The notes under the pieces: model-generated
Told to the model about the DNA's origin: nothing
What the model saw: the letters and a program-made list of their open reading frames with translations, nothing else
Databases searched by the model: none
Assembly: GCA_028554795.2 (NCBI GenBank)
Contig: CM068830.1
Coordinates: 109,505,214 to 109,569,213 of the forward strand
DNA from: Sinohyriopsis cumingii
Lineage: Eukaryota; Mollusca; Bivalvia; Unionida; Unionidae
DNA: 64,000 nucleotides
Direction of reading: 5' to 3'
Translations under genes and position numbers: made by a program
In this document: positions 1,291 through 37,443 of the stretch, one piece after another
Numbering within the stretch: the first letter of the stretch is position 1
How the letters are laid out: the number at the start of each line of letters is the position of its first letter

Positions 1291-2033
1291 ATGGCTACCT
1301 CTACTGTCTCTGCTCCCTCTTCCTCTACTGTCAAAGTCATCGACGAACACTTAGATCGTGCCAGTTGGGAGGCTTTGTATCTTCGCCATCCCTTTAACAT
1401 GCTCATTGCCGGACCTAGCGGTTCAGGCAAAACCGAATTCGTCAAACGTTTGATCGAACATAAATATCATTTGATCGATCGGCCACCTCAACGGATCGTG
1501 TGGTGTTACAAAGAGTGGCAATCGGCGTACAACCTCTTGCGAGAAAGTCAAGGCGATTCCATCGTGTTTGTGGAAGGCATTCCTAAAGAAGACGACGGCA
1601 TCGTCTCTGACTCAAGTCAAACCGATTTGGTCATTTTCGACGACATGTTAGGAGAAGACGAAGAAGAAATTAAATTGTGGTTCACGCGCAAAGGGCATCA
1701 CCGTAATGCCAGTGTCGTTTACATCACCCAAAATTTGTTTCAACAAAGTAAAGTCCATCGCACCATCAGTCTCAATGCGCATTAGTGGTCTTGTTTAAAA
1801 GCCCTCGAGATAAATCGCAAGTGCAAGTCTTAGCCAAACAGTTAGGAACTCCTTGGCTGACTCAGGCGTACGACGATGCCACTCAAACTCCACACGCCTA
1901 TTTACTCGTCGATTTGAAACCTACGACTCCCGAGGATTTGCGATTTCGTACCCACTTGTTTCACCACTGGTGCCAAGACGGAGGGCCTGTCCTGTACACG
2001 TCTCCGTCCTCGACTTCATTTCACTCCACATAA
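1291..2033 (+). pseudogene. Packaging ATPase (A32/FtsK-HerA type), one frameshift
   Basis: Drives genome packaging into the capsid in Polintons, adintoviruses and large DNA viruses of the same lineage. The first frame (1291-1785) has a Walker A motif GPSGSGKT at about residues 41-48, a Walker B motif LVIFDDML near residue 112 and the family's sensor-like YITQNLF. It stops right after the conserved ISLNAH. The rest of the family signature (VLFKSPRDKSQ) continues from 1785 in another frame, reached by a one-base change at about 1783-1785. Combined length is about 245 codons, normal for the family. A TATA box lies 47 bases upstream. The break is a real mutation or an assembly error. Family assignment is secure. 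Confidence 0.9.
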
Positions 2034-4267: not shown

Positions 4268-5377
4268 ATGGAAAAAGTCTTAGCCAGCATTTACTACGAT
4301 CCTTCGCATCCTGCAGGTTACGCAGGAGTTCAAAAATTGTATCATGCTGCCAAAACGCGACTGAAAAGTCTCCGTTTACCTCAAGTGCAACGATGGTTAC
4401 AAGAACAAGCTACCTACACTTTACACAAACCCATTCGACGCAAGTTTGCCAGAAGTCGCACCCGAGTGGAAGGCATCGATCATCAATGGCAAGCCGATTT
4501 AGCCGATGTCTCTCATTTGGCCAGCTACAATCGTGGCTACAAATATTTGTTTTGTGTCATCGACGTCTTTTCCATATTTGCCTGGGTCGTGCCCTTGACT
4601 TCCAAATCGAGCAGCGAGTTAGTGCGAGCCCTGCAACGGGTGTTGAAACAAAGCGGTCGTCGCCCTCTTCGATGGCAAACGGACAAAGGCACCGAATTTC
4701 TGAACCAAGCTTTCCAAAAAGAATTAAAGAAACGTGACATTCATTTTTTTACCACCGAGAATCCCGAAACCAAAGCCAGCATCGTGGAACGTTTTCAACG
4801 CACTTTGAAAGAACGCATGTGGAAATATTTTACGCATCACCACACTCTGAAGTACATCGACATCTTACCGCACCTGGTGCAAGCGTACAACCAATCTTAC
4901 CATCGAAGCATCGGACGTGCCCCGCAAGACGTGACTCCCGACAACGAAGTGTTGGTGTTCGAGCGTCTGTTTGGTACGTCCCCGACGAGGGCTGTCCCCA
5001 AGAAAAGTGGAGAGTTGACCGTAGGAGATTGGGTGCGCATTGGCAAAACCAAACGCACTTTCGACAAAGGTTACTTACCTAACTGGACGACCGAATTGTT
5101 TCGCGTCACTGGACGAGTGCATGGCCGTCATCCTGCCGTCTATAAATTGGAAGACATGAACGGAGAAGTGCTCAAAGGAACGTTTTATTTGCCCGAGTTA
5201 CAACGTGTCACCAAAAAAGAAGACGACGTGTACGACATCGAAAGCATTCTCGAACGCAGAACCCGTAAAGTGGGCAAACGACGTGTCAAAGAAGTGAAAG
5301 TACGTTGGAAAGGATATCCGCCCAGTTTCGATTCTTGGATCGACGCTTCGCAAGTCATCGACTATAAAAAGAAGTGA
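4268..5377 (+). CDS. Retrovirus-type integrase with C-terminal chromodomain
   Basis: 369 residues, intact. The rve core has catalytic residues D77 (in HQWQADL), D139 (in WQTDKGTEF) and E174 (in SIVERF). An SH3-like region follows (GDWVRIGKTKRTFDKGYLPNW). The C-terminal chromodomain lies at about residues 317-365, with VYDIESIL, VRWKGYPPSFDSW and the aromatic residues that bind methylated lysine. It inserts the linear element DNA into the host genome, and the chromodomain should steer insertion toward marked chromatin. The integrases of elements 2 and 3 lack this domain, so element 1 belongs to another lineage. Confidence 0.95.
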   Translation: MEKVLASIYYDPSHPAGYAGVQKLYHAAKTRLKSLRLPQVQRWLQEQATYTLHKPIRRKFARSRTRVEGIDHQWQADLADVSHLASYNRGYKYLFCVIDVFSIFAWVVPLTSKSSSELVRALQRVLKQSGRRPLRWQTDKGTEFLNQAFQKELKKRDIHFFTTENPETKASIVERFQRTLKERMWKYFTHHHTLKYIDILPHLVQAYNQSYHRSIGRAPQDVTPDNEVLVFERLFGTSPTRAVPKKSGELTVGDWVRIGKTKRTFDKGYLPNWTTELFRVTGRVHGRHPAVYKLEDMNGEVLKGTFYLPELQRVTKKEDDVYDIESILERRTRKVGKRRVKEVKVRWKGYPPSFDSWIDASQVIDYKKK

Positions 5378-7185: not shown

Positions 7186-8511
7186 ATGATGCACCGAGAG
7201 TCTTGCGCTTGTTCCAAGTCGGAACTGGATCTGTTTGCTATGCCACCCACCATGATGACGATGCAAGAATCCCAATGGGTGGAATTTCATCCCGTCTCCT
7301 CTTTGACGGAATCAGCTCCCATCGAGTTCGAAATCAAAGGACAGCCCGAAGATTACATCGATCTGAATAGCAGTTACCTGTATTTGAAAGTGAAAGTGAT
7401 CAAAACGGACAACACCAATCCTGGAGCCAATGATAGGGTAGCGCCCGTCAACAATTTCATGCATTCCTTGTTCAGCGAAGTGGACTTGTACTTGAATAAC
7501 AAACTGGTCAGCAGCAGCATTGATACTTACCCATATCGTGCCTACTTGGAAAATCTCTTGACGTACGGAAAAGAAGCCAAGAATACTCATCTGGATGCTT
7601 GCGTGGTATGGAAACCTGACACGGCCGGTGCAACCACGTTTAACGACACAGCCCTGACAGTAGATGACGATCCTCACAATGTGGGGTTTAACACACGTAG
7701 AACTAAAATTCTTTTAGGGCGAAGTTTAGAACTGATGGATCGTTTGCATTTGGACATGTGGTTACAAGAAAAGTATTTGCTGAACGGAGTGGATATCCGC
7801 CTGAGACTGAATCGTAGCACTGCTGCTTTCCATTTGATGTCTCATGATGCCACTTACAAAACCATCATTCAAGAAGCCCGACTTTACGTGCGTCGTGTGG
7901 AAGTGTTACCTAAAGTAGGAAACGACGTCAGTCAGACGTTGAGCAGAACGACCGCCAAGTATCCGATTCGACGCGTGGAAGTGAAAACCTTCACCATTCC
8001 CACTGGACAGCGATCCATGATCGAAGATCATCTGTTCCAAGGACAGTTACCCAAACGTTTGATCGTTGGTATCGTCAGGAATTCATCTTTCAATGGAGTC
8101 CACAACGAAAATCCTTTTGAGTTTCAACACTTTGGCGTGTCCAAGATCGAAGTCAGTCGCGATGGCAAGACCTTGTGTACCCGACCTTTCGAACCTACCT
8201 TTGCCCAGAACAATTACTTGAGGTCGTACTTGTCCCTGTACGAAGCCACGGGACAGTTAGGAACCAACACCAGTCACGGTATTACGTACGAGGATTATGC
8301 AGGAGGCTATGCTTTGTGGGGTTTTGATTTCACTCCAGACCAAGGCAGCGACGAGGGACATTTCCACCCTATAAAATCTGGCCAGATTCGTGTGGAACTT
8401 CAGTTTGCAATCCAAGACCCTGTTAATCCAACGTTGAACGTCATCCTGTATGCAGAATTCGATAACACCATAGAAATCAACAGTTTGGGAGAAGTCATTC
8501 TAGATTACTAG
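7186..8511 (+). CDS. Major capsid protein, double jelly-roll (hexon-like)
   Basis: 441 residues, intact. Shows the conserved N-terminal jelly-roll features of Polinton/adintovirus capsid proteins: YIDLNSSYLYLKVKV, the VNNFMHSLFSEVDLYLNN signature, YPYRAYLENLLTYG, then the second jelly roll with VEVKTFTIPTGQ and a C-terminal VELQFAIQDP...NVILYAEF strand pair. It would form the trimeric capsomers. Met codons near residue 19 could also serve as start. Its sequence is far from the capsid protein of element 3, confirming a different lineage. Confidence 0.9.
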   Translation: MMHRESCACSKSELDLFAMPPTMMTMQESQWVEFHPVSSLTESAPIEFEIKGQPEDYIDLNSSYLYLKVKVIKTDNTNPGANDRVAPVNNFMHSLFSEVDLYLNNKLVSSSIDTYPYRAYLENLLTYGKEAKNTHLDACVVWKPDTAGATTFNDTALTVDDDPHNVGFNTRRTKILLGRSLELMDRLHLDMWLQEKYLLNGVDIRLRLNRSTAAFHLMSHDATYKTIIQEARLYVRRVEVLPKVGNDVSQTLSRTTAKYPIRRVEVKTFTIPTGQRSMIEDHLFQGQLPKRLIVGIVRNSSFNGVHNENPFEFQHFGVSKIEVSRDGKTLCTRPFEPTFAQNNYLRSYLSLYEATGQLGTNTSHGITYEDYAGGYALWGFDFTPDQGSDEGHFHPIKSGQIRVELQFAIQDPVNPTLNVILYAEFDNTIEINSLGEVILDY

Positions 8512-9025: not shown

Positions 9026-9574
9026 ATGGATACCTGGGAACTTTATTACCTTTTGAACCACAGTTCGTATACGTCTTCTTGGAATCCTGTCGTCTGTGCT
9101 AAAGATGAACTCCCTCATCGCAAACCTAAAGACCATCAAGCTTACGTGATCAACACGGACGACAGTCATCTCCCAGGAACCCACTGGGTAGCCGTCTACT
9201 TTCCTCAAGAAGGATGTGTGGAATATTTCGATTCGTACGGATTGCCCCCTTTGGAAGACGATATCATTGACTTTATGAGAAGAAATGCTCAAACCACCCG
9301 ATTCAATAATGTGTAATTACAAGGCACAGATTCCTTGGTGTGTGGACAGTACTGTGTGTATTTTCTGCATCATCGCAGCCTGGGCTATTCCTTAGAACAT
9401 TTAGTGACTCATTTTGATCCTCGTTCTTCTGCTAGAAACGATGTGAAAGTAGATCGATGGTTTTATGACCATTATGCTTATCTTTTGTCTCAAGCTAGGA
9501 AACGTAGTGTCCATCAATGGCCTAATGATTTCCAACAGTGGAAATCACAACGTTGTCAGCCCTGTTTAAAGTAG
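9026..9574 (+). pseudogene. Adenain-like cysteine protease, one in-frame stop
   Basis: Maturation protease of adenovirus and Polinton type that cleaves capsid precursors. His53 in GTHWVAVYF, Asp69 in EYFDSYG and the catalytic Cys at about residue 106 in VCGQYC form the triad. The frame is continuous except for a TAA at 9314-9316, between the Asp and Cys parts and just before the conserved LQG. The stop separates the catalytic residues, so the copy is probably inactive. A start at 9026 gives the usual family N-terminus. Total about 180 codons, normal length. Confidence 0.88.
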
Positions 9575-9819: not shown

Positions 9820-9862
9820 GGGGGATGTTTTCCTTCACGTCCGCGCTTTGACTTTAAGAACC
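9820..9862 (+). promoter_or_regulatory. Promoter cassette, copy 1
   Basis: Contains GGGGGATGTTTTCC, TCACGTCCGCGCTTT and a TATA-like TTTAAGAACC, about 50 bases before the ATG at 9913. The same cassette occurs at 10688 and 11539 before the two sister genes, and as a partial copy at 11342. The CACGTCCGCGC core could bind a cell-cycle or CRE/E-box type factor (inference). Confidence 0.65.
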
Positions 9863-9912
9863 AGGGTTGTTTCCAGTCTAACCATCCATTGTCGACTCAT
9901 CCTCCTAAGAAG

Positions 9913-10281
9913 ATGTGCTCCAAACTAGCTAAACTCAACGAAGCCTACGTGAATTTGCATAGGGTCAGACACAGTCTGATACCGAAGCCAGAAGAAATAG
10001 AGAATGTGAGAATGTTAAAAATCACTGAAGACCTGATAGAAGAGCTCTTCAGAGAAGAAATGAACAGGGAGAAAGAAGAATGGACAGAAAAGTACAGACT
10101 TCAGAGACAGCAACAGCAGCAACAACAGCAACAACAACAACAACAACAGCAGCAACCTGAAGCTGACAGAGGCTTTGTCGATTGTCGTATCGACACCAAA
10201 GAGTTCTTCTTCTCTTTCCGAAGAAGCAGACCTATCGCCAGAAAGTCTATCCTCAGAGGACATCGCATTCTTAGAAACTAA
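9913..10281 (+). CDS. Histone-ended small gene A: charged helical protein with polyGln
   Basis: Start chosen at the ATG at 9913, the first ATG after the TATA-like box. About 122 residues: a basic-helical N-terminus (CSKLAKLNEAYVNLHRVRHS), an acidic/basic helix, an uninterrupted run of about 16 Gln encoded by mixed CAG/CAA codons, and a basic C-terminus. No histone fold is seen. The stop is only 33 bases before a histone-type 3' stem-loop. Member of a tandem family with the genes at 10784 and 11628, which share the promoter cassette, the N-terminal helix-plus-charged-helix layout and the 3' end. Unknown function. Confidence 0.65.
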   Translation: MCSKLAKLNEAYVNLHRVRHSLIPKPEEIENVRMLKITEDLIEELFREEMNREKEEWTEKYRLQRQQQQQQQQQQQQQQQQPEADRGFVDCRIDTKEFFFSFRRSRPIARKSILRGHRILRN

Positions 10282-10313
10282 AAAAAGAATGCCATAGCAA
10301 ACAAAAAAAAAAC

Positions 10314-10333
10314 AGCCTTTTCAGGGCTACCCA
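10314..10333 (+). terminator. Histone-type 3' stem-loop, copy 1
   Basis: AGCCTTTTCAGGGCT followed by ACCCA. This is the metazoan replication-dependent histone mRNA stem-loop layout, here with one C missing from the 5' arm. A purine-rich AGAAAAGAAA follows at about 10341-10350, where the U7-binding histone downstream element would lie. Confidence 0.7.
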
Positions 10334-10344
10334 ATACTCTAGAA

Positions 10345-10687
10345 AAGAAATAACGATCGATTTGCCAATGTGTGTAGGTAGAGTAGTGTGAAAATAAACA
10401 CTAACTCTTTTTAAAAAATGTGAGGGTATGTGTTTGTGTGTTTGTGTTTGTAAGTGCTCACGTACGTTGGTATGGATAGTAGATTAAAATGATGTCTTTT
10501 TTGGTGTTTGAGGTGTATATTTGGGGTTAGATTGGATTGCTTTGCGCATGTGGATAGTCCCTTGAAGTGATTTATAAAAAATTTTAAAATAGTGATGGGT
10601 AGCATAAAAAAAGTGAGTGAGTGTTTCTTTTAGGTCCGCGCGTTGTTGTTTGGTCATGATCTAGGTAAGATCAATTTTATGTTATTG
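10345..10687. other. Spacer between small genes A and B
   Basis: No supported gene. It holds a GT-rich stretch (TATGTGTTTGTGTG) and a conserved segment with CGTACGTT and ATAGTAGATTA that reappears after gene B (about 11203-11285). At 10633-10670 there is a partial promoter copy (GTCCGCGCG, then TGTTTGGTCATGATCTAGG) that recurs at 11362-11395. The spacer therefore belongs to a duplicated unit of about 850 bases. Confidence 0.55.
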
Positions 10688-10729
10688 GGGGGATGTTTTC
10701 CATCACGTCCGCGCTTTCAGTATAAATTG
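10688..10729 (+). promoter_or_regulatory. Promoter cassette, copy 2
   Basis: GGGGGATGTTTTCC, ATCACGTCCGCGCTTTC and TATAAATTG, with an ATG at 10784. Same order and spacing as copies 1 and 3. Confidence 0.65.
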
Positions 10730-10783
10730 AAACTCGTTCGGCAGTCCAGCTACCCTTGTTGATTGATCAACACCACCAGAAGA

Positions 10784-11092
10784 ATGAACACCAGAATTGT
10801 GAAACTGTTAGAACTCCAGATGCACCTGGAATATGCCAGGCGCATAGTAAATGAACTATCAGCGGAGGCTATCGTAGAAGAAGCAAGAATAAAGAAAGAA
10901 GAGGAGGAGAGAAGAGAGAGGGAAGAAGAGGAAAAGAAAATAGGAGAGAGGATGTCGTACAATATTCCCGAGACAGAGGATTGGGGTGCTGAAGCGAATC
11001 ATCCTCCCTCTGCGCTCCCCAGAAGAAAGGTGAAAGAAGACTGGGGAAGAAGATGCGTGTGTGGCGCCAGGCCAGGAAGGTGCAACCATTAG
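10784..11092 (+). CDS. Histone-ended small gene B: Glu/Arg-rich helical protein
   Basis: About 102 residues from the ATG at 10784. The N-terminal helix (RIVKLLELQMHLEYARRIVN) leads into a single charged Glu/Lys/Arg helix, then a less ordered tail with DWG motifs and a Cys/Arg-rich end (CVCGARPGRCNH). The charged helix is typical of coiled coils or single alpha-helices. The stop is 28 bases from a perfect histone-type stem-loop. Intact. No recognised family. Confidence 0.65.
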   Translation: MNTRIVKLLELQMHLEYARRIVNELSAEAIVEEARIKKEEEERREREEEEKKIGERMSYNIPETEDWGAEANHPPSALPRRKVKEDWGRRCVCGARPGRCNH

Positions 11093-11119
11093 ATAGGTGC
11101 ATCTAGGGTTAAAAAAAAC

Positions 11120-11140
11120 AGCCCTTTTCAGGGCTACTCA
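11120..11140 (+). terminator. Histone-type 3' stem-loop, copy 2 (perfect stem)
   Basis: AGCCCTTTTCAGGGCT, a six-base-pair stem with a TTTC loop, followed by ACTCA and, eleven bases after the stem, CAAGAAAAGAAA, matching the purine-rich histone downstream element. No AATAAA is seen between the stop codon and this element. Confidence 0.8.
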
Positions 11141-11149
11141 ATACTCAAG

Positions 11150-11538
11150 AAAAGAAATAACGATCAATTTGCCAATGTGTGTAGGTAGAGTAGTGTGAAT
11201 ATAAACACTAACTCTTTTTTTAATTGTGTGAGTGTATGTGTTAGTAAAGGCTAGCGTACGTTTGTGTGAATAGTAGATTATAGGTTTCTTAGCGTATGTG
11301 AAGAGTATAGTTTGGGTTTTATTATATGAAATGAAAAAGTAGGGGAATGTTTTCCTTCACGTCCGCGCGATGTTTGGTCATGATCTAGGTAAAAGCCTGG
11401 GGGATGAGGCTCCTTTTCCTTCCCCCAGGAGTAATTAAAAATCACGCAGTGCGTGAATAAAAAAGTGGTACATGTTCAAAAGAACGAAAACCACTATAAT
11501 CCAACTAACTAACTAACTAACTCAATTTTTATGTCTTA
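11150..11538. other. Spacer between small genes B and C with hairpins
   Basis: Repeats the layout of the A-B spacer, then has a partial promoter cassette without TATA box (11342-11370) and TGTTTGGTCATGATCTAGG. An extra block follows at about 11396-11520: an inverted repeat (CCTGGGGGA ... TTCCCCCAGG), the short palindrome CACGCAGTGCGTG, and five AACT tandem repeats. No gene seen. Confidence 0.5.
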
Positions 11539-11582
11539 GGGGGATGTTTTCCATCACGTCCGCGCTTTCACTATAAGAACCC
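11539..11582 (+). promoter_or_regulatory. Promoter cassette, copy 3
   Basis: GGGGGATGTTTTCC, ATCACGTCCGCGCTTTC and CTATAAGAACC. Nearly identical to copies 1 and 2. ATG at 11628. Confidence 0.65.
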
Positions 11583-11627
11583 ACAGTATTCGTCGTTCAA
11601 ACCATTCTACAAAGAATAAAAAAGAAG

Positions 11628-12004
11628 ATGGCTTCGAACCACCTTAACAAAATGGAAAAATTGCAAAACGTCCTGGACAATTTAGGAATGTTTGAGCAAT
11701 GTTGGTTAACCTAAACGAGGATCACTACTCTTATAGTCCCCATCGAGTGAAGATGGAGATAAACAATTTACGAAAAATGAAGGTAATCATCAGTGATCTG
11801 TTAAAAGAAATAAAGGAGGAGAAGGAGGATGAAGAGGAAAGGATAAGGATGAGAGCATGGAATAAAAAAATTGTAAAAGAAGAAGAAAATGAGAAGAGGA
11901 AGAAAGAAGAGGAGGAAGAGAAGAAAGAAGAGGAGGAGAAAAAAAAGAAGAAAAAGAATGTAGGTGAGAAAATAAGAAGTTGGTGGAGGAAAAGAAGAAA
12001 TTAG
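11628..12004 (+). pseudogene. Histone-ended small gene C: Glu/Lys-rich helical protein, probable frameshift
   Basis: The ATG at 11628 lies at the same distance from the TATA box as in the sister genes but opens only 28 codons (MASNHLNKMEKLQNVL...). A second frame, open from 11699 to 12004, has the expected helix followed by a very long Glu/Lys repeat helix and a basic WWRKRR end. One frame change near 11700 would place both in one gene; alternatively translation begins in the second frame. The stop is 20 bases from a perfect histone-type stem-loop. Confidence 0.55.
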
Positions 12005-12023
12005 AAGCAGAAGAAAAACAAAA

Positions 12024-12044
12024 GGCCCTTTTCAGGGCCAGCCA
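12024..12044 (+). terminator. Histone-type 3' stem-loop, copy 3 (canonical)
   Basis: GGCCCTTTTCAGGGCC, the textbook metazoan replication-dependent histone stem-loop form, followed by AGCCA and a purine-rich CGAAAAGAGA at about 12052-12061. Confidence 0.8.
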
Positions 12045-12108
12045 TATTTCTCGAAAAGAGATAGCCTTTCCATTGCCTACCCCTTTTTTTAAAAAAAAAA
12101 CAAAATCC

Positions 12109-12325
12109 CATGTTCCATTCCCCTTGTCCCTAAACAAACCCAAACTCTATTCCCCATGTTAAATTCCCCTTGTACGTAAAGTGACCCACGATTTATTCCC
12201 ATGTTAAATTCCCCTTGTACGTAAAGTGACCCACGATTTTTCGCCATGTTAAATTTCCATTGTACGTAAAGTGACCCAGGGGTCCCTGTAATGCTAATTC
12301 CCATTGTACGTAATGTGCCCCCCTT
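12109..12325. repeat. 45-bp tandem repeat
   Basis: Four clear copies of a 45-base unit beginning ATGTTAAATTCCCC and containing TTGTACGTAAAGTGACCC, starting at 12156, 12201, 12246 and 12291. A more diverged copy lies before them. Marks the transition from element-1-type sequence to AT-rich DNA. Confidence 0.8.
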
Positions 12326-12386
12326 TACTACTTTTAGATTATATTTATGGATCTGAATATGGGATGGGAAAATCAGAGGCTGCTTG

Positions 12387-17500: not shown

Positions 17501-17869
17501 CTTTTAATCTATGACCATGTAGACCGTGGGGTGCATGTGTGTGCAATGTTTCATGGCAATCCTCCAAGGCAATTACGAGGAGCAGGGATAGAAACCTTGT
17601 GCTAACAGACGGATGACAAAGAGAGACAATGAACAATCCCATACGCTGTTCTGGACTATGATCGTTGGAGCTCAAAGGTAAAATCTAAACAGCTTATAAA
17701 TTATTCATTTTTCTTAAAATCATAGAAAACTATTTTCATTAAATACAAATATAAATATAATGCACTTCTCAATACTTAAATGTTTATGAATTGGTATACC
17801 TTTCTTTGTAAACTTTAAAACATTCATTTTGTTCATTTACTGATAATGCAAGAAAAGACACATACTATT

Positions 17870-18690
17870 ATCTTAATATCAATAATAATGCATTTAATTA
17901 GCACTAAGGTCGTATCCTGACTATTATCTTAATATCAAGCAAAGACATTTAATTAGCACTAAGGTCATACCCTGACTATTATCTTAAAATCAATATAATG
18001 CATTTAATTAGCACTAAGGTCATACCCTGACTATTATCTTAATATCAAGCTAAGACATTTAATTAGCACTAAGGTCATACCCTGACTATTATCTTAATAT
18101 CAAGCTAAGACATTTAATTAGCACTAAGGTCGTACCCTGACTATTATCTTAAAATCAATATAATGCATTTAATTAGCACTAAGGTCATACCCTGACTATT
18201 ATCTTAATATCAATATAATGCATTTAATTAGCACTAAGGTCGTACCCTGACTATTATCTTAAAATCAATATAATGCATTTAATTAGCACTAAGGTCATAC
18301 CCTGACTATTATCTTAATATCAATATAATGCATTTAATTAGCACTAAGGTCGTACCCTGACTATTATCTTAATATCAAGATAAGGCATTTAATTAGCACT
18401 AAGGTCATACCCTGACTATTATCTTAATATCAAGATAAGACATTTAATTAGCACTTAAGTCATACCCTGACTATTATCTTAATATCAAGATAAGACATTT
18501 AATTAGCACTACGGTCATACCCTGACTATTATCTTAATATCAAGATAAGACAATTAATTAGCACTTAGGTCATACCCTGACTATTATCTTAATACAAGGG
18601 AAGACATTTAATTAGCACTAAGGTCATACCCTGACTATTATCTTAATATCAATATAAGGGATTTAATTAGCATTAAGGTCAATCCCTGAC
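17870..18690. repeat. 55-bp tandem repeat, about fifteen copies
   Basis: Unit contains CTGACTATTATCTTAATATC, then GCATTTAATTAGCACTAAGG and TCATACC. Copies are well conserved and alternate between two variants (CAATATAATGCATT and CAAGATAAGACATT), which suggests amplification of a dimer in part of the array. Confidence 0.9.
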
Positions 18691-19727
18691 ATGATAAATA
18701 CACAACCACCTCATCTGTCTGATTTGTTTTCTATAAGCGTTGTCACTCCATATTCCAAAGATTGCTTGTTGAGTTAGCTTTGCTAGTATTTTGCCAAACA
18801 TGTCAAATGTGCTAATTTAAATAATATCGTGATATAAATATCGAGAATCCAACATTCAGAATGGATAATTAGAAGACAACTATACCCGCTCTATCTTTCC
18901 TGTCATTACCTTTTATTTCAATGTGACCATGAAACCAACAATACTAGATATTTATTTACAGATTTTACGAAAAAATAGTGTTTCAGAAAGATTTTAGATG
19001 TTAATGAGTTATCACATTCAAGGCTTTGCAAGGATTTCAATCATGAAAAGGTATCTAAAAGGTTATGAAATTTCCGTTTATTTCATTTTTTAGTTTTGAC
19101 CTAGTTCCAAGATTTGAGCATGTCTGTTATTTATGCAGTAAAAGCGGAGGTTTCATCAATTATTCAGTTACAGATGGTGCTGCTAGGTGCCATTGGATGT
19201 TGCATCAGCAGCTGCCTATTTCAAACAATCTGATTACATGGATGTATGGAATATTAGATGATTGGTAGGCAAATCTTTTTAAATTACAAATATCCAACAT
19301 TATATTGCATGTATTTATTAACAAAGGTGAAATTCTTGGAATGGAAACTTTTACATTGTGACAAAATTGATTTTTTACTCTTCTAAATGATGGTAGATTC
19401 ATAAGCTAAATTAGGTTTCCTAGCATAGATGGCTTGGCATTTGGATCTAAAGATTACTTCTGTATACAGGATTAGAGGGATTAAAATAACTTGGGACTGA
19501 AGATTCAGTTTTGTTCATTTGCATGAAAGTGATACATCATTTTCTTGACCACAGAGGCTTTCTGAAAGTGAAGTTATACAAGCCACATGGCAAAATCTAA
19601 GTCCCTGATTGTGTATTGGATACAACAACCCTGATGTTGTGTATTGGGCACAACATGCGCAGGAAAGATTGCACAGTTGATGTATACATTAATGAGTTAA
19701 AGTCACATTTCTATCTAAATTAAAATC

Positions 19728-21110
19728 ATGTATAACCGTATCAACGCATTCTGGTATAGCTGTCACGTATAGCCATAGTTAGGCGTTCTGGTAGAGTTGT
19801 CACGTATAACCGTAGTAAGGCTTTCGGGTATAACTTTCATTTATAACCGTAGTAAGGCTTTCGGGTATAACTTTCATGTATAACTGTAGTAAGGCTTTCC
19901 GGTATAGTAGTCACGTATAACCGTAGTAAGGCTTTCTGATATAGTTTTCATGTATAACCGTAGTAAGGCTTTCGGGTATAGCTTTCATGTATAACCGTAG
20001 TACGGCTTTCTGGCATAGTTTTCATGTATAACCGTAGGAAGGCTTTCTGGTATAGCTGTCACGTATAGCCATAGTTAGGCGTTCTGGTATAGTTGTCACG
20101 TATAACCGTAGTAAGGCTTTCTGGCATAGTTTTCATGTATTAAGGCTTTCTGGTATAGCTGTCATATATAACCGTAGTAAGGCTTTCTGGTATAGCTTTC
20201 ATGTATAACCGTAGTAAGGTTTTCTGGCATAGTTTTCATGTATAACCGTAGGAAGGCTTTCTGGTACAGCTGTCACGCATAGCCATAGTTAGGCGTTCTG
20301 GTATAGTTGTCACGTATAACCGTAGTAAGGTTTTCTGATATAGTTTTCATGTATAACCGTAGTAAGGCTTTCGGGTATAGCTTTCATGTATAACTGTAGT
20401 AAGGCGTTCTGGCATATCTTTCATTTATAACCGTAGTAAGGCTTTCTAGCATCGTTTTCATGTATAACTTTAGTAAGGCTTTCTGGCATAGTTTTCATGT
20501 ATAAGCGTAAGAAGGCTTTCTGGTATAGCTGTCACGTATAGCCATAGTTAGGCGTTCTGGTATAGTTGTCACGTGTAACCGTAGTAAGGCTTTCGGGTAT
20601 AGCTTTCATGTATAGCCGTAGTAAGGCTTTCGGGTATAGCTTTCATGTATAACTGTATTAAGGCTTTCCGGTATAGTAGTCACGTATAACCGTAGTAAGG
20701 CTTTCTGATATAGTTTTCATGTATAACCGTAGTAAGGCTTTCGGGTATAGCTTTCATGTATAACTGTAGTAAGGCGTTCTGGCATAGCTTTCATTTATAA
20801 CCGTAGTAAGGCTTTCTAGCAAAGTTTTCATGTATAACCGTAGTAAGGCTTTCTGGTATAGCTATCATGTATAACCGTAGTAAGGCTTTCGGGTATAGCT
20901 TTCATGTATAGCCATAGTAAGGCTTTCTGGTATAGTTGTCACGTATAACTGTAGTAAGGCTTTCTGATATAGCTGTCATGTGTAAGCGTAATAAGGCTTT
21001 CGGGGTATAGCTTTCATGTATAACTGTTGTAAGGCTTTCTGGTATAGCTTTCATGTATAACGTAGTAAGGCTTTCGGGTATAGCTTTCATTTGTAAACGG
21101 AGCAGTATAA
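19728..21110. repeat. 37-bp tandem repeat, about 37 copies
   Basis: Unit TAGTAAGGCTTTCTGGTATA plus GCTTTCATGTATAACCG. Higher-order structure is visible: a multi-unit block containing the GCCATAGTTAGGCG variant recurs near 19770, 20060, 20280 and 20530. A short detached piece lies at 21300-21415. Confidence 0.9.
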
Positions 21111-22480: not shown

Positions 22481-22569
22481 TGGCCATGAGTTGAAGTGTA
22501 TCTGAAATTGCACACCAAGACAATTCCTCACACGGAAAATGGCAGCCAAAGATGACATGGAAAGCGGTA

Positions 22570-22718
22570 AGCAGCAGAGAGGGCGATCAGACCACTATAG
22601 GGAATGGTCACCCTTTGTTTTTAGACAAAAAAAATAGTGACCCTTCATAAAGGTCAATACCACGTCTACGGTTATTGTTTGTCCCAAACAGAATTGTAGA
22701 CGAGCCCTCTCTGCTGCT
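22570..22718 (+). repeat. Left terminal inverted repeat of element 2
   Basis: Reverse complement of 38508-38655 with few differences. It begins AGCAGCAGAGAGGGC and ends with the inverse GCCCTCTCTGCTGCT, so the repeat is itself framed by an inverted pair. Confidence 0.9.
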
Positions 22719-22751
22719 GCTATTAATTAAAAAATTGTTATATTAAAACTA

Positions 22752-23703
22752 ATGGTACATCCAGAATCTTATACTGCAAGAATAGCACGAGAACGATTGG
22801 AAGCAATTAAAAAATTTCTTCCCGTGCGAGATTCATTTAGAAAAAATCTACAAGCGCAGCAAGAAGCACAAGTTGAGTACGAAAAAGACACTAAAAAACT
22901 GTTTAAACCCGTCACTGCAGCTACTGAAAAAGTTACAACTGTCATCAAAGAAGATCTTCTTCCGGTATCAAAACAAACAGCAGAACAAACTGAAAAAATA
23001 GCAAGAAGAACTAAACAGACAAAGAAGATTTTACGAGATCTTTCAGCTAATATAGCTGCGGTTCAACCTCCAACTTTTGGTGAGGAAATACTTGAAGATA
23101 TTGGAAGACTTCGTGCTGAAGTCGCCGACGTGCAAAAAGAACATACACCTAAATCCAAGCCAGTAAAAGAAAATATAAAATTAATTGCAAGATTTAAGGA
23201 AGGGGTTGTTGAAGATATTGGAAATACTGAAAGAGAAAATTTACCCGAAAAACATATTTTAAACTACCCTCATAAAAGAATAAATGATGATAATCTTATT
23301 AAATGGATATATCGCATACATGCAAACAAAAGACAGGTTAGAAGTGATGATTCGAAATACAAAGATCTTTATAAAGAAGTAGAAATACTTTATAGAGAGA
23401 AGAAGTGACTCACCTGACATATCCCCGGTCACCACTGAAGTACTTTATCCGGTGATGCAACCACCAGTATTTAAAACACCTCAAGATGAACCTAAAACAG
23501 GATCTGGTTTATGTCCTGATAATATCATTAATGATGTGTCACGGTTAGAAGTTCTCATAGGAGTAAAACGTGCCGGAAATAATTCACCAGAAATAATTAA
23601 TGAAGCATCTGATATTTGCCGGCGATTATTTCAAGGCGGTATTATGGATATCGGAGTTTACCGAGAACTTATCGATGAACTTGCTGATGATTACAGTGAC
23701 TAG
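22752..23703 (+). pseudogene. RAGNNS-domain protein (element 2), frameshifted
   Basis: The N-terminal 218 residues (22752-23408) are helical and coiled-coil-like. The C-terminal domain VSRLEVLIGVKRAGNNSPEI, ending in VYRELIDELADD, continues in another frame that is open across 23401-23703. The homologue in element 3 (54005-54952) is one uninterrupted gene, so a frame change near 23400 is clear. The C-terminal motif L-x-VLIG-x-KRAGNNSPEIxNE recurs in animal Polinton-like elements next to capsid genes. Function unknown, probably structural. Confidence 0.7.
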
Positions 23704-23731
23704 TTGTTAGATAAATAGCAAATAACATAAG

Positions 23732-24177
23732 ATGATCATACATAATAATCATCGTAAACCCGTGCAGGTCAGAGCGGTAAACTCACGATTACCAATCTAC
23801 AGAGCTACTTACGGAGATGGATTGGTGATGTTGTACAGGGATTATTTACAAGGATAGCTCAAAAAGCAGCACCTATTGCAAAACAATTATCGATGAAAGC
23901 TATTGATATTGTTCGTGATAAAGCTCCTGGAGCAATTGTCAATGTTGCTGGTAAGGCGTTCTCGATGATCAAAGATAGACTAGCACGATTAATGCGACGA
24001 AAACGACAACCATCAGTGAAACTGGCAAGTACTGAAGTGATGCCAGCAGATGTCAGCAGAATAATAAATCAGGCTGCAAATCAAAAACTAGCGGCGTTAG
24101 CAGATCAAGGACTCGGTGAACCAGGGAATAATATTTCAAGTTTGATATCAGGGAGTGGAATTTCCCGAACGCGGTAA
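23732..24177 (+). pseudogene. pVI-like minor capsid protein (element 2), frameshifted
   Basis: The ATG at 23732 opens the conserved N-terminus (RAVNSRLPIYRATYGDG). The rest of the protein, SMKAIDIVRDKAPGAIVNVA onward with a basic RRKRQP patch, is in another frame to the stop at 24175-24177. The motif AYYGDGLG-x(n)-GLF in the element 3 homologue identifies the family. The frame of its end runs straight into the truncated capsid gene, showing that a deletion joined them. Confidence 0.65.
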
Positions 24178-24897
24178 TCGGTTGTTCTTGTAAGAAAGGG
24201 TGATGATAACGATGCTCTGTGGAGACCTGTTGGTGATCCTGGTAAAGTAGTATTATCGAAACTTTCACTATGGATGCCGGTAATGACTCCAGCGATCGCA
24301 GTAGAACAAAAATTAATTTCTTTCATGGACACTGGTGGTAAATCCTTGATGTCATGGTTAACAACATGTACAGATAGTATGCAAACTGACGTTAACGATC
24401 AGTTTACATGGCATATAGCATCACAACAGGGAGTTTCTGTACCGCGGCATATTTGTATTGTGTTTCAGAACATCAATCGATTAGGCTCACAAAACCACTC
24501 TCATATGATATTTGACAAACTAGGTATCACAGATATTTCTTTACGGATAAACGGACAACAAGAACCAGCAGAGAATATACAAGTAAATTATGAACAGAAT
24601 CGTATAGGACGTGCATATCATCGTTTAATGTCATTCATGGGACGTGATCAAAACGTGGATACTGGATTGCAAATATCACAACATGATTTTAAAAATTTAT
24701 ATCCGATTTATTATTTTTCACTAGAACATCTTGATCTATCAAAACAATCTGTCGTTGATATACATCTTAAAGCAACATTAGATACAGATGGTGCTAATTA
24801 TAGAGCAATCGCGGTCATACTCAGCGATAAAGCTATGTTACTTGAAGGTGGTAGTGGTCGAATGAGAGTCGTTGATGCACCATTGGAAAATCTTTGA
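24178..24897 (+). pseudogene. Major capsid protein fragment (element 2), N-terminal half deleted
   Basis: Corresponds to the C-terminal half of the 499-codon capsid ORF in element 3. It starts at the VRKGDDNDALW stretch and keeps ISLRINGQQEPAENI, FMGRDQNVDTGLQI, LYPIYYFSLEHLDL and IAVILSDKAMLLEGG. The upstream 250 or so residues, containing the first jelly roll, are absent. An ATG at 24274 is internal and is not the native start. Same frame as the upstream pVI-like gene, separated by its stop. Confidence 0.85.
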
Positions 24898-24930
24898 TCA
24901 TGTTATTTAGAAAAATGTATTTATATAAAA

Positions 24931-25814
24931 ATGTCGTATAGTCATGTTAATGTTACTCTGACTCCCGGTCAGGTCAAAAAGCTTCAGTCAAAAACCACCA
25001 GCAAATGCGGAACTAAAATATCACTAAAACGAGATCAGATGGGTGGTGGTCCAAACAAATTATCGTTGACAAATAATCAGATTAAACATTTCAATAAAGC
25101 CCTAGAATCAAAAACCGGAGTTCAATTACATCTTTCTCCCAGCGCCATCAAAGACATGGTTAAAACGGGTGGTATATTTCCATTTCTTGCGGCCATTCCA
25201 GCATTAATAGCTGCTGCCGCTCCAGCTGTAGCAAAAGCAGCCGGGTTAGGTGCTGTTGTAACAGCTGCTGGAATGGCTCTAAAGAAAGCAAAAGGAAATG
25301 GATACAAAAAAGGGACGCGGCCTAAGATTACCGGGATCTCGTTGGGGAAGAGGTCTGAGGCTTCCACGTTAGATGTTCCAGCATCAAATTTTGATTTACT
25401 TGATGCTGCTAAACGATTAAAAATAAAAAAAAAAACTTTAGAGGTGATTTTGTGCGAGATCAATTACCAAAACAACCAAACAAACTCGAAACAGGTATTA
25501 TTAATCTCGACTCGAATTCAGGACCCGGTACTCATTGGGTATCATACGCGGTTGATCCACGTGGAATCGTTTATTTTAATTCATACGGATTAGCTCCACC
25601 TGTTGAATTTATCAAGTATGTTGCACCACTTCACGCGCAAGTTTGATATTCAACGCTACCCACACAAACAATGACAGATCCGCCAATATGCGGCCGTGAA
25701 GTAATTAATGTACTTAACGCTGTATCAAAATCATCCAAACTGCCACATAAAGTCGTGCATGATTATACAAGCAAGCGATTCGTTGCGCGTAAAGTGTTTA
25801 AAACAGATCTTTAG
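24931..25814 (+). pseudogene. Membrane-active domain fused to adenain-like protease (element 2)
   Basis: The N-terminal region has repeated Leu/Lys motifs (TPGQVKKLQSK, LTNNQIKHFNKAL) and a hydrophobic Ala-rich segment (GGIFPFLAAIPALIAAAAPA) like virion membrane-lytic peptides. It continues in the same frame into the protease start SNFDLLDAAKRLKIK. After an A11 run (about 25425-25435) the frame changes, then RDQLPKQPNKLETGIINLD, GTHWVSYAVDP and YFNSYGLAPP follow. A TGA at 25644-25646 precedes the catalytic-Cys motif PPICGREV. Here the usual Asp of the triad region reads Asn (YFNSYG). Shows that the two domains form one gene. Confidence 0.75.
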
Positions 25815-25820
25815 ATTATA

Positions 25821-26843
25821 ATGGTTGATATTTACGGAAGAAGATCTTCACCCGTTGAGAAAAAATCCGGCGACGTTGATCTGTCAAAGTACGCGACTAA
25901 AGATGATCTCACTGATATCATGAATCTTGCTGGAGTTGGCCCAGATGAGGTTGTTATTTTTCAGGATCGACATGGTAAACTAAAAACGAGCAACATCAGA
26001 TGGAATGATATAATTCGACGAGTACTCGGTGAGGTCATGGATAATATTAATGTGTTTACTGACAGCGGCAAAATCAGGGATTCAAGTATATCGTTTACAA
26101 CCATCAGAAATGAAATTACAAAAAGTGTTGCTAATCGCGTGAAAAACACCGGCTACACAATGACGGGTGAACTCAGCATGAACGGATATAAGATAGTAGT
26201 TTTAAGAGATCCAACATCCGACGAGGACGCAGCTACAAAAAGGTACGTTGACGTCAACTACAACATCGTAGATGGTAAATTATCCACGTTGCGGGCCGAG
26301 TATGATGTTCACCTAGGCGCTTTTGGAAGATTTCGAAGAAACTTTCAAAAACCCGATGAATCTATAGATAAATTTTTCGGCACTCCGCACTCCGTTGACA
26401 TAAAACTTTCTGATATCAAGACGAACATCGACACGATCAAACAAACACAGCAAGACATCGTGGCGTGGATTCCTGAGTTCGTTAATAAAACCAGTCTGAT
26501 TAAAATTCCAGCCGGAAAAACTCCCGGACATATCACAAACATCGTATACACAGTATCATCGGGATTCGCAACATGGTCGCAGCAAAATAAAACTATCAAA
26601 TATACCGCAACAGCTACTGGCGTGTACAGGTTGTCTGTGTTCAGTGCTGCAAAATTTGAAGTATTTACAACGTATCCATGGCGTCATTCAACCGATAAGT
26701 TTTCCGGGGTTCTATCTGTTAAATTAAATAGTGGAACCGAAGAAATATTTATTTTGGAAGCAGCTGATAAGACATTAAATGCAACATCTTACTGGTGGTG
26801 TTTGGAATTTGTAGCTGAAACACCTCAATTATTTACTGCATAA
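25821..26843 (+). CDS. Fibre-like trimeric attachment protein (element 2)
   Basis: 340 residues, intact. The N-terminal peptide MVDIYGRR and the segment VGPDEVVIFQDRHGKLKTSN are shared with the fibre gene of element 3 and probably dock on the vertex. The shaft contains a classical tail-fibre motif, YTMTGELSMNGYKIVVLRDP followed by DEDAATKRYVDV, widespread in phage fibres. The C-terminal domain from about residue 240 is beta-rich (YTATATGVYRLSVFSAAKFE) and ends in WWCLEFVAE. Layout tail-shaft-head resembles adenovirus fibre. It is one of the few undamaged genes in element 2. Confidence 0.75.
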   Translation: MVDIYGRRSSPVEKKSGDVDLSKYATKDDLTDIMNLAGVGPDEVVIFQDRHGKLKTSNIRWNDIIRRVLGEVMDNINVFTDSGKIRDSSISFTTIRNEITKSVANRVKNTGYTMTGELSMNGYKIVVLRDPTSDEDAATKRYVDVNYNIVDGKLSTLRAEYDVHLGAFGRFRRNFQKPDESIDKFFGTPHSVDIKLSDIKTNIDTIKQTQQDIVAWIPEFVNKTSLIKIPAGKTPGHITNIVYTVSSGFATWSQQNKTIKYTATATGVYRLSVFSAAKFEVFTTYPWRHSTDKFSGVLSVKLNSGTEEIFILEAADKTLNATSYWWCLEFVAETPQLFTA

Positions 26844-26849
26844 AAATAT

Positions 26850-27334
26850 ATGGATGGTGCACAATACAGGTACAATCAAGCGCGTGAATGGCAGGCAGCA
26901 TTAAAAGATCGAGTTGAACAGTACACAGCAAAAGTAAAGAAATATCGACGACGATTAGTTATCGTGGACGTGATCGTTTATTCAGTATCTGCTGTTGTTG
27001 CTGGAACAAGTGTTATATTATCAGCGGTAACAGTGATGGCACCAGTAGCCGTAACTATTTGCATTTCAGCAGCAACAACGATTGCAGGTGTGCTCAATAT
27101 CATTGCAAAACAATATTCACCTGCACGAATGAAAAATTATCCGATTACATGATAAGATTACATACAGCGACGGTCGCATACTCGAAGTTATCCTCGTTGT
27201 TATCAGCGAGTCCCAGTGATGGAATTATATCTGATTTCGTGTTTTCAATGATGACTAAAATATATGACGAAGGTATCGGTATTAAAGACATAAATACTAA
27301 TAATGACAGAATTACTCCAGCAGATCGTGACTAA
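26850..27334 (+). pseudogene. Conserved hydrophobic membrane protein (element 2), frameshifted
   Basis: The first frame encodes a basic helix (RVEQYTAKVKKYRRRLVIVD) and a long hydrophobic region (VVAGTSVILSAVTVMAPVAV). The C-terminal part, VAYSKLSSLLSASP through ISDFVFSMMTKIYDE, is in another frame from about 27120. The homologue in element 3 is intact (48686-49168). A family of this shape (basic helix, Gly/Ala-rich membrane hairpin, then a KLS...ISDxEF helix) is common in animal Polinton-type loci. Function unknown. Confidence 0.65.
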
Positions 27335-28742
27335 TACAACTCCGCCAAAGATAACGATGATCTCGGTAAGTTCAACTAATCCTGAATTTAGTATTAACTT
27401 TCCTACTGCAATTCCAGTAAAGGAAATAGCACTAGCTCAATTACGGGTATATTACAGCTGGCCAAATATCAGATCAAAATCATTCAATGGTACACCAGCA
27501 AATAATTCGCTTGTATTTGCTAACAACAACAAACCAGATGGAACGCCTGACTGGATAGATGTTGGAATACCCACTGGTAGTTATGAGATCGAACAAATCA
27601 ATGAGAAATTTCAACGTAGAATAAAATCAATAACCGGAAAAGAAGCAAAAATATCAATTAACATTCATGGACCGACGCTGTCCTCGACGGTTGAGATACA
27701 TTCTCCTGATTATGCCGTTGATATTTATCAATCCTCGATAAGATCCGTACTAGGTTGGCCGGATGTTCCCCCAGTGTATGAAGGACCACCTGAACCGAAG
27801 TTAAGTGATTTTATCACGGACGATGCTAAGTTTATAATAACTCCAGAATACCGAAATTTGTATCCATGGGTTAGAAGGGAGGATAATACTCGTATTATTC
27901 ATGATGGAAAATATTATCCTATGGTACCGTTTTCTATCATTGATTTTGATAGAAAAACTTCAACTGGAATTATTTATGAAAGATATTTCAGATCAAGAGC
28001 TAACGAAATTAAAGCTGAGTACACAATTACATTAACGACATTAGTACGTTTATTTAAAAATTAAATCCTGGAGTATCCCAATATCGATCTAAAACATCAG
28101 ATCATTGCAACGATACAACATTTAAATCAGATTATTTCAGACATTAAATACGTTAATCAAACTATTGTTGAGGTAATAAATACTAGTACTTATGATGTTG
28201 GAATTGAAAAAGATAAAATAACAACAATCAAGCGGATGTACCTTGATCATTATAAAATAGCTGAAGGAGATTTATTAAAATTTACATTACCAGGATTTGA
28301 AGCTGGCGAATTAATAGGATCACTCAATGATCTTGTCGCGAAAAACTTTCCTGAAATACTAGCTATGTGGAGAAAACTAGCACCACCAGCAACTGTTCTC
28401 AGATACAATAACGATCCACACGGCGGCGGCAGGCACGTATCCCCGGGAATCGTTAATATAACCAGCACGATCGTGGTAAATCTGGTTTGTGACGTAGTCG
28501 ATGGCAGCTATCAAATAGATCTCGGAAAATCAAATCAGGCTCAACAAGGATATATTTTATATACATTAACACCACAAATGTCCCCTGGAAGTTTAATCGT
28601 GCAAGAACCAACTAATCGTGTGTATCTGCGGTGTCACAATAATATATTAACACGAATAAATTTTAAGCTCACAGACCACCTTAATCGCTTAATTGACCTA
28701 TGTGGAGAAGAGCTTGTAATAAATCTGTATGTGAAATCTTAA
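27303..28742 (+). pseudogene. Penton-like minor capsid protein (element 2), one in-frame stop
   Basis: Homologous over its length to the 440-residue gene at 47293-48615. The N-terminus (ELLQQIVTNTTPPKITMISV), IPVKEIALAQLRVYYSWPNI, the family motif IPTGSYEIEQINEKFQRRIK and the C-terminal jelly-roll strands VYLRCHNNILTRINFKLTD and ELVINLYVKS are present. A TAA at 28062-28064 interrupts an otherwise open frame. The start overlaps the preceding gene. Confidence 0.85.
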
Positions 28743-28763
28743 TTAATCAAGTAAATATTATAT

Positions 28764-29036
28764 AATGTACCAGCTCGTGAGGGTTTTTATACCGACAAAG
28801 AAGCACTTGAAAACTCCATCAGCACTGCGTTTTCACAAAACACAGAGCAATTTAACGTTAATTTAGTTATTGATGAATACGGAAGCGAGGATTTCTTATT
28901 AACACAAGAACAGTTAGATTAGCTCCGTCGAGAACATATTATCGAGATCATTTGTAACAGAGATCAGATTCTAAATTGTACACATTCCTGTATTAAACTC
29001 GATCAACTGAAAAAAATAATATTTCAGAATAAATAA
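28764..29036 (+). pseudogene. Remnant of a small gene specific to element 2
   Basis: A frame open for about 90 codons apart from one TAG at 28920: VPAREGFYTDKEALENSIST, then FNVNLVIDEYGSEDFLLTQE, the stop, and LRREHIIEIICNRD with several Cys. Composition is protein-like. No counterpart exists in element 3, whose penton gene ends at the terminal repeat. No family recognised. Confidence 0.4.
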
Positions 29037-29129
29037 ATAAATATAATCACTGATGGGATAAATTACACAAATTAATAAATTTTGTACAATCTGAAATAAT
29101 TTATTATTATTCTGAAATATTTAGTTTTT

Positions 29130-29850
29130 TATGAATTAATCTGATGGGGTGGTTGGTACTTAAAATTATACAAATCAATCAGTTTGTTAATTCTGATGGG
29201 GTGGTTGCTACTCAAAAGTATACAAATCAATCAGTTTATTAATTCTGATGGGGTGGTTGGTACTTAAAAGTATACAAATCAATCAGTTTATTAATTCTGA
29301 TGGGGTGGTTGGTACTGAAAATTATGTAAATCAATCCGTTTTCCAAAAAATACTACAAAAAAAATATTTTATTATTATTCTGAAATATTTTTATTATTTA
29401 TGTAAATTATTTAATTTATTAATTTTGATGGGGTGGTTGGTACTAAAAATTCATACAGATCAATTAATTTATTAATTCTGATGGGGTGATTGCTACTTAA
29501 AGTATGCAAATCAATTAATTTATTAATTCTGATGGGGTGATTGCTACTTAAAGTATGCAAATCAATTAATTTATTAATTCTGATGGGGTGATTGCTACTT
29601 AAAAGTATACAAATCAATTAATTTATTAACTTTGATGGGGTGATTGCTACTTAAAAGTATACAAATCAATGAGATTTGTATTTTAATGGGGTGGCTGCTA
29701 CTCAAAAGTATACAAATCAATCAGATTTGTAATTTTGATGGGGTGGTTGCTACTCAAAAGTATACAAATCAATCAGTTTTTCAAAAAATATTTTATTATT
29801 ATTCTGAAATATTTTATTGTTTTATGTAAATTAATCAGTTTATTAATTCT
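29130..29850. repeat. 52-bp tandem repeat inside element 2
   Basis: About twelve copies of a unit with TTAATTCTGATGGGGTGGTT, then ACTTAAAAGTATACAAATCA. They are interrupted twice by a T-rich block containing TTATTATTATTCTGAAATAT, which also borders the array. The array sits exactly at the junction between the structural and the replication modules. Confidence 0.9.
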
Positions 29851-29892
29851 GATGTGATATACAATGAGAGAAATTAATCAGATTTTATATTA

Positions 29893-30266
29893 CTACTCAG
29901 GGTTGCTTTGGTCGTTACCCGCTGCCATAATTTGTCTTAAGTATCTTATGCGGGTACTGATTGTTTTTTTCGTTTCGTACTCGCTGGATAATCCCGATCT
30001 GACCATTTCTACTGCGACAGAAAGAGGAATAAATTTATTTACTTGATCATCGTTCACCATAGCTAGTGATTGAAACATAGCTGCCTGAATCCGCTTTATG
30101 AACTTATATTGAGATGATAGAATATACTTATTTTCATTTTTAAGTTCTTCTAACGTTTCAAAATCAGATATTATTTTTTCAGGATTTAGTTCATCAGATA
30201 TATTAATTCCGTTTTCTTCTAGTTTTTAATAGCAGAAATAATGTCTTTGATATTTTCATGGTTCAT
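29893..30266 (-). pseudogene. Small helical protein (element 2 copy), frameshifted
   Basis: Minus-strand homologue of the 126-residue gene at 54975-55355. The ATG at 30266 opens MNHENIKDIISAIKN before a stop. The remainder (ELNPEKIISDFETLEELKNE, then YKFIKRIQAAMFQSLAMVND, and a C-terminal RIRYLRQIMAAG) is in another frame. Unknown function; conserved only in length and helical pattern. Confidence 0.55.
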
Positions 30267-30339
30267 TATATAATATATAAATCTTTAAAATAAAATAAAT
30301 TATCCCTATAGAACCCCTATCGAGTGTTTAGCGAGTTCG

Positions 30340-31660: not shown

Positions 31661-31673
31661 AAACAAATAAATA

Positions 31674-32192: not shown

Positions 32193-32280
32193 TATACAAT
32201 AATATTATTTGTTTAAATCATTGTTTGTCTGAAATCTTGATATATAGTCCTCCAAGGATTTTATAGCGTTTTCACTATTA

Positions 32281-32484
32281 TTATTTTTTTTTGTCATAAT
32301 ATCTTTTAAGTTCTCTGAACCGTTTTCCACCGCACTTTCCACGTAATTCTGTTTTTGCTCGCACCCCAACACCACATCGGAGACATGGTATTGGTCCTAG
32401 ACTTCCTCGCCGTATATTTTGTAAGTGCATCCAACAAAATTCACTTCTACAGGATTTATTACATCGATTTACTGAACCGATCAT
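32281..32484 (-). pseudogene. Cys-rich zinc-binding-type protein (element 2), start damaged
   Basis: Cys pattern CNKSCRSEFCWMH, then PCLRCGVGV and GKCGGKRF matches the intact 113-residue protein at 55958-56299. The N-terminal MNHC part is disrupted by a one-base loss, so the open frame begins at MIGS. The C-terminus ends at KKK, shorter than in element 3. A second relative lies at 38159-38504. Confidence 0.65.
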
Positions 32485-32546
32485 GAGCCAAATGCATGAT
32501 ACATTGTATATATAATATTCTTTATTTAAATATTTGTTTTAATTAT

Positions 32547-36928: not shown

Positions 36929-36949
36929 ATATACTACCAGACCCAAACG

Positions 36950-37431: not shown

Positions 37432-37443
37432 GTTATAAAATAT

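Follow-up and report, generated by a model that had tools for sequence, protein, structure and literature searches.

The closest described counterparts of the genes reported here are the replication-dependent histone genes. An eLife paper (PMC6303110) presents, in its abstract, core histone mRNAs as the only known protein-coding mRNAs of animals in which a 3' stem-loop replaces the poly(A) tail, and describes a processing pathway which comprises SLBP, the U7 snRNP and cleavage 5 nucleotides (nt) 3' of the loop. Here, we analysed a 64,000-nt stretch of the genome of the bivalve Sinohyriopsis cumingii (contig CM068830.1, positions 109,505,214 to 109,569,213), referred to below as the window and numbered from its first letter. 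The window begins inside a DNA virus-like element which resembles Polintons and adintoviruses (element A, ~20.6 kb, right end at 12343), and five accessory genes of this element (F1, F2, F3, F5 and F6) carry a histone-type ending, whereas that of a further family, F4, was seen in other copies. An initial annotation, made from the letters alone, had noticed three genes of this kind. The finding is confirmed and enlarged: to five genes of one element, to a family in which gene 2 has at least 150 close copies and, for F1 to F3, to histone-type promoters.

The viral genes share with the replication-dependent histone genes the stem-loop (RF00032, SLBP/U7 pathway), its ACCCA-type context, a purine-rich downstream element, short open frames, a histone promoter box and a tandem and divergent layout. 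They differ in that their proteins are, by Pfam, non-histone, in their location inside an integrated virus-like element, and in the outer stem pair of F1 and F2, which is A-U. With Polinton/Maverick elements and adintoviruses, element A has in common a type B polymerase, an rve integrase with a chromodomain, an A32-type ATPase, inverted repeats and what is presumably a capsid-type protein; it is set apart by its five genes with histone-type ends. None of the titles and abstracts of the literature matches listed deals with such ends in viruses or Polintons. Animal DNA viruses also touch histone biology through the 'histoid' genes of adomaviruses and tailtomaviruses. According to the excerpts available from PMC11071296, in which the term 'stem-loop' is absent, those genes encode histone-like proteins, while here the proteins are non-histone and it is the gene ends that are histone-like.

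Three of the genes lie in the window, with the following ends:

9913..10281, plus strand: gene 1 (F1), 122 amino acids, charged and glutamine-rich, no Pfam family above cut-off; relatives P0001-P0009
10314..10328, plus strand: histone-type stem-loop of gene 1, one stem base absent in this copy
10339..10353, plus strand: histone downstream element of gene 1, CTAGAAAAGAAATAA, its ten initial bases as in host H3, H4 and H2B
10784..11092, plus strand: gene 2 (F2), 102 amino acids, long N-terminal helix and conserved C-terminal CVCGARPGRC motif
11120..11135, plus strand: histone-type stem-loop of gene 2, six pairs, A-U as outer pair
11146..11160, plus strand: histone downstream element of gene 2, CAAGAAAAGAAATAA
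11628..12004, plus strand: gene 3 (F3), frameshifted in this copy
12024..12039, plus strand: gene 3 stem-loop of histone type, with six pairs (outermost G-C), bordering the terminal inverted repeat on its inner side
12050..12064, plus strand: histone downstream element of gene 3, CTCGAAAAGAGATAG

The positions 10314, 11120 and 12024 given by the initial annotation for the start of the stem-loops, and their distances of 33, 28 and 20 nt from the stop codons, were borne out. Its description of the loops as perfect or near-perfect holds for genes 2 and 3, with six pairs each, but has to be softened for gene 1, whose loop is one stem base short. The covariance-model search proposed there as a check gave a split result. 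With cmscan and the Rfam histone 3' stem-loop model RF00032, gene 3 (12019-12064) scored 35.4 bits and thus exceeded the gathering score of 34, while gene 2 (11115-11160; 29.8 bits, E 1.7e-4) and gene 1 (10309-10353; 17.2 bits, E 8.7) stayed below it. A strict stem-loop pattern, derived from the three sites themselves, has exactly three matches in 64 kb, all on the plus strand and identical with these sites; 200 first-order random sequences contain 0.0 on average. A less stringent pattern, independent of the loop letters, has two matches in the window versus 0.26 expected. The purine tract said to follow each loop is by itself not clearly above chance: with up to three mismatches it has 20 matches in the window against 12.2 expected, and 3 of 100 shuffles are equally high. 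We give it weight because it stands about 10 nt 3' of every loop and resembles the host histone element.

The histone genes of the host are numerous and arranged in tandem repeats of ~8.3 kb; one such repeat, read in three pieces, was compared with one element. At its 3' end, host H3 carries GGCCCTTTTTAGGGCC, as does H4, while H2B carries GGCCCTTTTCAGGGCC; CTAGAAAAGA comes next in all three, which gives the 3' consensus GGCCCTTTT(T/C)AGGGCC and then CTAGAAAAGA; the GGCCC...GGGCC stem and the GAAAAGA downstream core are common to all three genes. The H2A end reads GGCCCTTTTAAGGGCC and then CCGAAAAGGA; the piece containing H1 gave no loop in the pattern scan. In most viral genes the stem reads GGCCC...GGGCC or AGCCC...GGGCT, and ACCCA-like bases follow. 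The ends are of histone type, as had been claimed, and the stem-loop and downstream element are of the host's own type.

The likeness to histone genes goes beyond that earlier claim, since the promoters match host histone promoters too:

9824..9847, plus strand: gene 1 promoter box of histone type, differing from the host H2B box at one position; TTTAAG, not TATAA, lies 3' of it
10624..10644, plus strand: H4-type box 5' of gene 2, identical over 21 nt to sequence upstream of host H4
10692..10715, plus strand: H2B-type box of gene 2, identical over 24 nt to the host H2B promoter, with TATAAA at 10721
11346..11369, plus strand: additional promoter box with three mismatches
11543..11566, plus strand: H2B-type box of gene 3, a 24-nt exact match; TATAAG at 11571

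The host H2B promoter box, GATGTTTTCCATCACGTCCGCGCT, thus precedes genes 2 and 3 unaltered and gene 1 with a single mismatch. A close form of it is present in the host H1 promoter, and one form lies in inverse orientation upstream of H2A. With up to three mismatches allowed, the box occurs four times in the window versus 0.00 times in shuffles. The other eight promoter comparisons with the whole window gave exact matches with lengths of 11-14 nt; the longest of these, a 14-mer, is the part of the same box present in H1. Outside these motifs the similarity to the host histone repeat fades, which fits selection on function more than recent copying.

In order to see how widely these ends occur, the 2.9-Gb genome was searched with the RF00032 model; 75 of 589,472 first-look candidates were scored, all 75 above threshold, and 55 loci covering 51 of the scored matches were fetched. 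Every one of them (55/55) holds at least one of the families F1-F6. A loop was counted when it had at least 4 of 6 pairs and at least 13 of 16 letters. By this measure, and with the duplicate loci L008, L011, L012 and L021 dropped, it follows 114 of 118 gene copies (F1 9/10, F2 16/16, F3 11/12, F4 9/9, F5 33/35, F6 36/36), with six pairs in 100. The four copies without it are F1 of element A, an F3 copy (L032) with another loop further on, and two F5 copies (L020 and L034). The GAAAAGA core comes after 100 of the 114 loops, and our claim on the downstream element is limited to this core and does not extend to the full ten bases.

The 55 loci had been selected by a high-scoring loop, one of F3-F6, so that the counts for F1, for F2 and for a protein-based pick are free of loop selection. 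When element A is excluded, the loop is retained after 9/9 F1 copies (with six pairs in seven) and 15/15 F2 copies. A search with the gene 2 protein, in which 150 of 20,348 candidates were scored, returned the copies mentioned above at 94-100% identity and full or near-full length; 148 of the 150 are devoid of internal stops, and they are spread over contigs C1 to C19 plus some smaller ones. In the 20 copies at even ranks of the 150, which are closely similar to one another, we found a six-pair loop in 20/20, and the exact downstream core and the exact promoter box each in 19/20. On one contig (G000:C37:6668064-6710524), three gene 2 copies follow one another at intervals of 21,093 and 21,062 bases, a spacing suggestive of whole elements arrayed head to tail.

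Raw ratios of non-synonymous to synonymous differences (pN/pS), summed over non-independent pairs of intact copies, are 0.25 for F1 (4 open reading frames), 0.30 for F2 (9), 0.34 for F4 (5), 0.45 for F5 (19) and 0.22 for F6 (20); F3, with one intact frame, has no value. The synonymous sites of F2 differ by 44.5% on average (9 intact frames). Conservation around the loops was profiled in 6/10 copies of F1, 14/16 of F2, 33/35 of F5, 9/9 of F4 and 35/36 of F6, as weak-loop, near-locus-end and identical rows are excluded and loop-less F1 and F5 copies are left out. Over the 14 F2 copies, identity amounts to 95% in the loop, 92% in ACCCA and 93% in the downstream core, versus 69% in the intervening spacer. 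The contrast is similar in F4 and F6, with 97% and 99% in the loop against 50-62% in the downstream flanks. In a set of 21 chosen rows, 14 have G-C as the outer pair and 6 have A-U, and the covariation score exceeds that of all 500 shuffles; the A-U form goes with the F1/F2 families and may represent one event. A further conserved block lies 55-100 nt 3' of the F1 and F2 loops (window 10369-10413 and 11175-11219) and contains, in this copy, AATAAA past loop 1 and ATATAAA past loop 2. Past the F2 loop, this block may be a poly(A) or a promoter signal.

The proteins had been described as non-histone, and this was borne out by a Pfam scan of F1, F2, F3 (fragment), F5 and F6, in which no family came above cut-off and no histone matched. 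Host histone proteins compared by tblastn with the 55 fetched loci, F4 included, had no match in any of them, while in the control H3, H4 and H2B did match in the histone piece. AlphaFold renders F2 as a single long helix with a poorly ordered tail, and it is this tail that is conserved and bears cysteines. In gene 3, the first frame ends at the stop at 11714 and the remainder is read from 11699 in a different frame. Relatives of F1 and F2 are present in other public sequence sets; in one outside protein, P0002, the letters of an N-terminal extension are, as read by eye, compatible with a translated promoter box. In viral contigs, searched with F1, F2 and the capsid-type protein, the last also as an alignment, no relative was confirmed. 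Seven IMG/VR stretches fit the loop pattern and were set aside as look-alikes due to chance or bacterial terminators; 0/7 have GAAAAGA within 45 bases 3' of the loop. Six of the seven were scanned with Rfam, where L005 reached 24.8 bits, below threshold; L007 has AGCCA.

The three genes had been placed beside or within a DNA virus-like element, and it can now be said that they lie within it, between its inverted repeats. Its other features in the window are:

1291..1785, plus strand: A32/FtsK-type packaging ATPase (PF04665, PF01580)
4268..5377, plus strand: integrase with chromodomain (PF00665, PF00385)
7186..8511, plus strand: capsid-type protein, no stem-loop and no Pfam match; named relatives are bivalve 'F54H12.2-like' proteins
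12015..12343, plus strand: right terminal inverted repeat, 98.5% identical, inverted, to L064 1391-1719 (left of the window)

The type B DNA polymerase of element A (PF03175) lies at L063, and two adjacent BIR (inhibitor of apoptosis) genes stand behind it (L063:3839-4297 and 4358-4990). The product of 7186..8511, a putative capsid protein, has 1872 relatives, and among the 120 listed none is named capsid, all being bivalve or plain hypothetical proteins except one from a symbiont bin. Inspection by eye pointed to an adenain-like protease at 9026-9574, interrupted by an in-frame stop; the part at 9026-9316 has no Pfam match. A check for a target-site duplication found a 7-mer common to both ends, but it overlaps the repeat end. 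At the left end of the element the divergent genes F6 and F5 are located, each with a perfect loop 3' of it; the two have a common promoter of ~220 nt with TATA-like and GTGACGTCACG sites (L064:1735-2766). The inner edge of both inverted repeats (window 12015-12024; L064 near 1710-1719) is found just 5' of a stem-loop, so that F3 and F6 have their 3' ends in common through the repeats. In pattern scans of element A no loop was detected elsewhere, including after the polymerase, integrase and capsid-type genes. Two further elements with inverted repeats and AAA-domain open reading frames, B (22569-38657, arms 97%) and C (47024-62227, arms 99% and 88%), occupy other parts of the window, and a pattern scan of both gave no histone-type loop. 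Long tandem arrays of 55-bp and 37-bp repeats lie between elements (17775-18734 and 19615-21016).

The observations comprise the signals themselves, where they lie, how far they are conserved and how they match the host histone signals. On this basis we consider, with a probability of roughly 0.84, that the genes belong to an integrated Polinton/adintovirus-like DNA virus whose accessory genes are run through the host's replication-dependent histone programme. Several results weigh against this. The U7 snRNA model RF00066 had no match in this genome, nor in 14 prokaryote controls. The common promoter of F5 and F6 is without the histone box, the full CTAGAAAAGA follows only 29 of the 114 loops, and in the copy of element A both the gene 1 loop and the gene 3 reading frame are damaged. 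The loop of F1 (6 copies) is, at 88% identity, below the coding part (91%), and that of F5 (33 copies) is, at 96%, hardly above it (94%). Covariation is limited to one outer pair and mostly tracks gene family, and two of the five pair measures, pairs changed on both sides (1) and further pair types (2), stay within the shuffles. An AATAAA stands at 10393, 64 nt past loop 1, and the block 55-100 nt past the F2 loops is 92% identical, like the signals.

The last two points would also suit stem-loops that are relics of a histone 3' end once acquired, with transcripts now polyadenylated at downstream AATAAA-type sites. We find this improbable, as F2 copies show 92-95% identity in the loop, ACCCA and downstream core despite the divergence at synonymous sites, and as not one of the 15 F2 copies outside element A has lost the loop. 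Moreover, the AATAAA past loop 1 is no argument against histone processing, because the fetched host H4 gene has the same arrangement 3' of its loop. The F3 and F6 loops border the terminal inverted repeats on the inner side, and this could point to a palindrome which acts as a DNA feature of the element ends, in transposition or replication, rather than as an RNA signal. This is very unlikely, given that the F1, F2 and F5 loops lie outside the repeats and that the loop stands on the coding strand, shortly past the stop codon and with a host-type downstream element.

It could also be argued that both ends and promoters were recently pasted, functionless, by exchange with the multicopy host histone repeat. 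The signals are indeed closely host-like, the host repeats are numerous, and the likeness to the H2A 3' end runs beyond the downstream element (69 nt, 77%). However, the promoter matches extend no further than 24 and 21 nt, and overall identity of the 3' matches is 70-81% (one repeat versus one element), unlike the traces of recent pasting, and we give this explanation very little credence. Host-like signals at both gene ends would finally be expected of ordinary host genes adjoining a virus insertion, but this is hardly credible for a gene set which sits between the inverted repeats of the element, whose members recur together in the fetched loci, with gene 2 on contigs C1 to C19, and whose F1 and F2 have relatives in other public sequence sets.

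Under the histone-programme reading, F1 to F3 would start from promoters with the box that the host uses before H2B and H1 and, inverted, before H2A, with an H4-type box added at gene 2, and they would be transcribed alongside the histone genes in S phase. A host-type stem-loop and a histone downstream element are found at the ends of F1 to F3, F5 and F6, as well as of F4 where other copies carry it; the stem-loop would be bound by SLBP, the purine element would pair with the U7 snRNP, and the transcript would be cut after ACCCA. Together with the known SLBP/U7 pathway, with its cleavage 5 nt past the loop (excerpts of PMC6303110), the signals imply that transcripts of these genes should undergo histone-type mRNA processing. 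The resulting mRNAs would be without poly(A) and stable only during DNA copying, so that the accessory proteins would be made exactly when the host provides its replication machinery. We infer the timing of transcription, SLBP/U7 cleavage, the absence of poly(A) and the roles of the proteins from these sequence signals. In a broader form, which we regard as likely, a lineage of animal DNA viruses would have shifted non-histone genes, as an entire set, into the replication-dependent histone class, giving them histone promoters and SLBP/U7-made ends that lack poly(A); the genes would then be switched on, stabilised and destroyed with host S phase, and their signals would track those of the host.

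If this is true, viral genes in the histone mRNA class would break the rule that only histones belong to it, and a new route by which a DNA virus couples itself to S phase would be added. The viral and host versions, present in one genome and directly comparable in RNA data, would moreover provide a natural test of which histone signals are sufficient.

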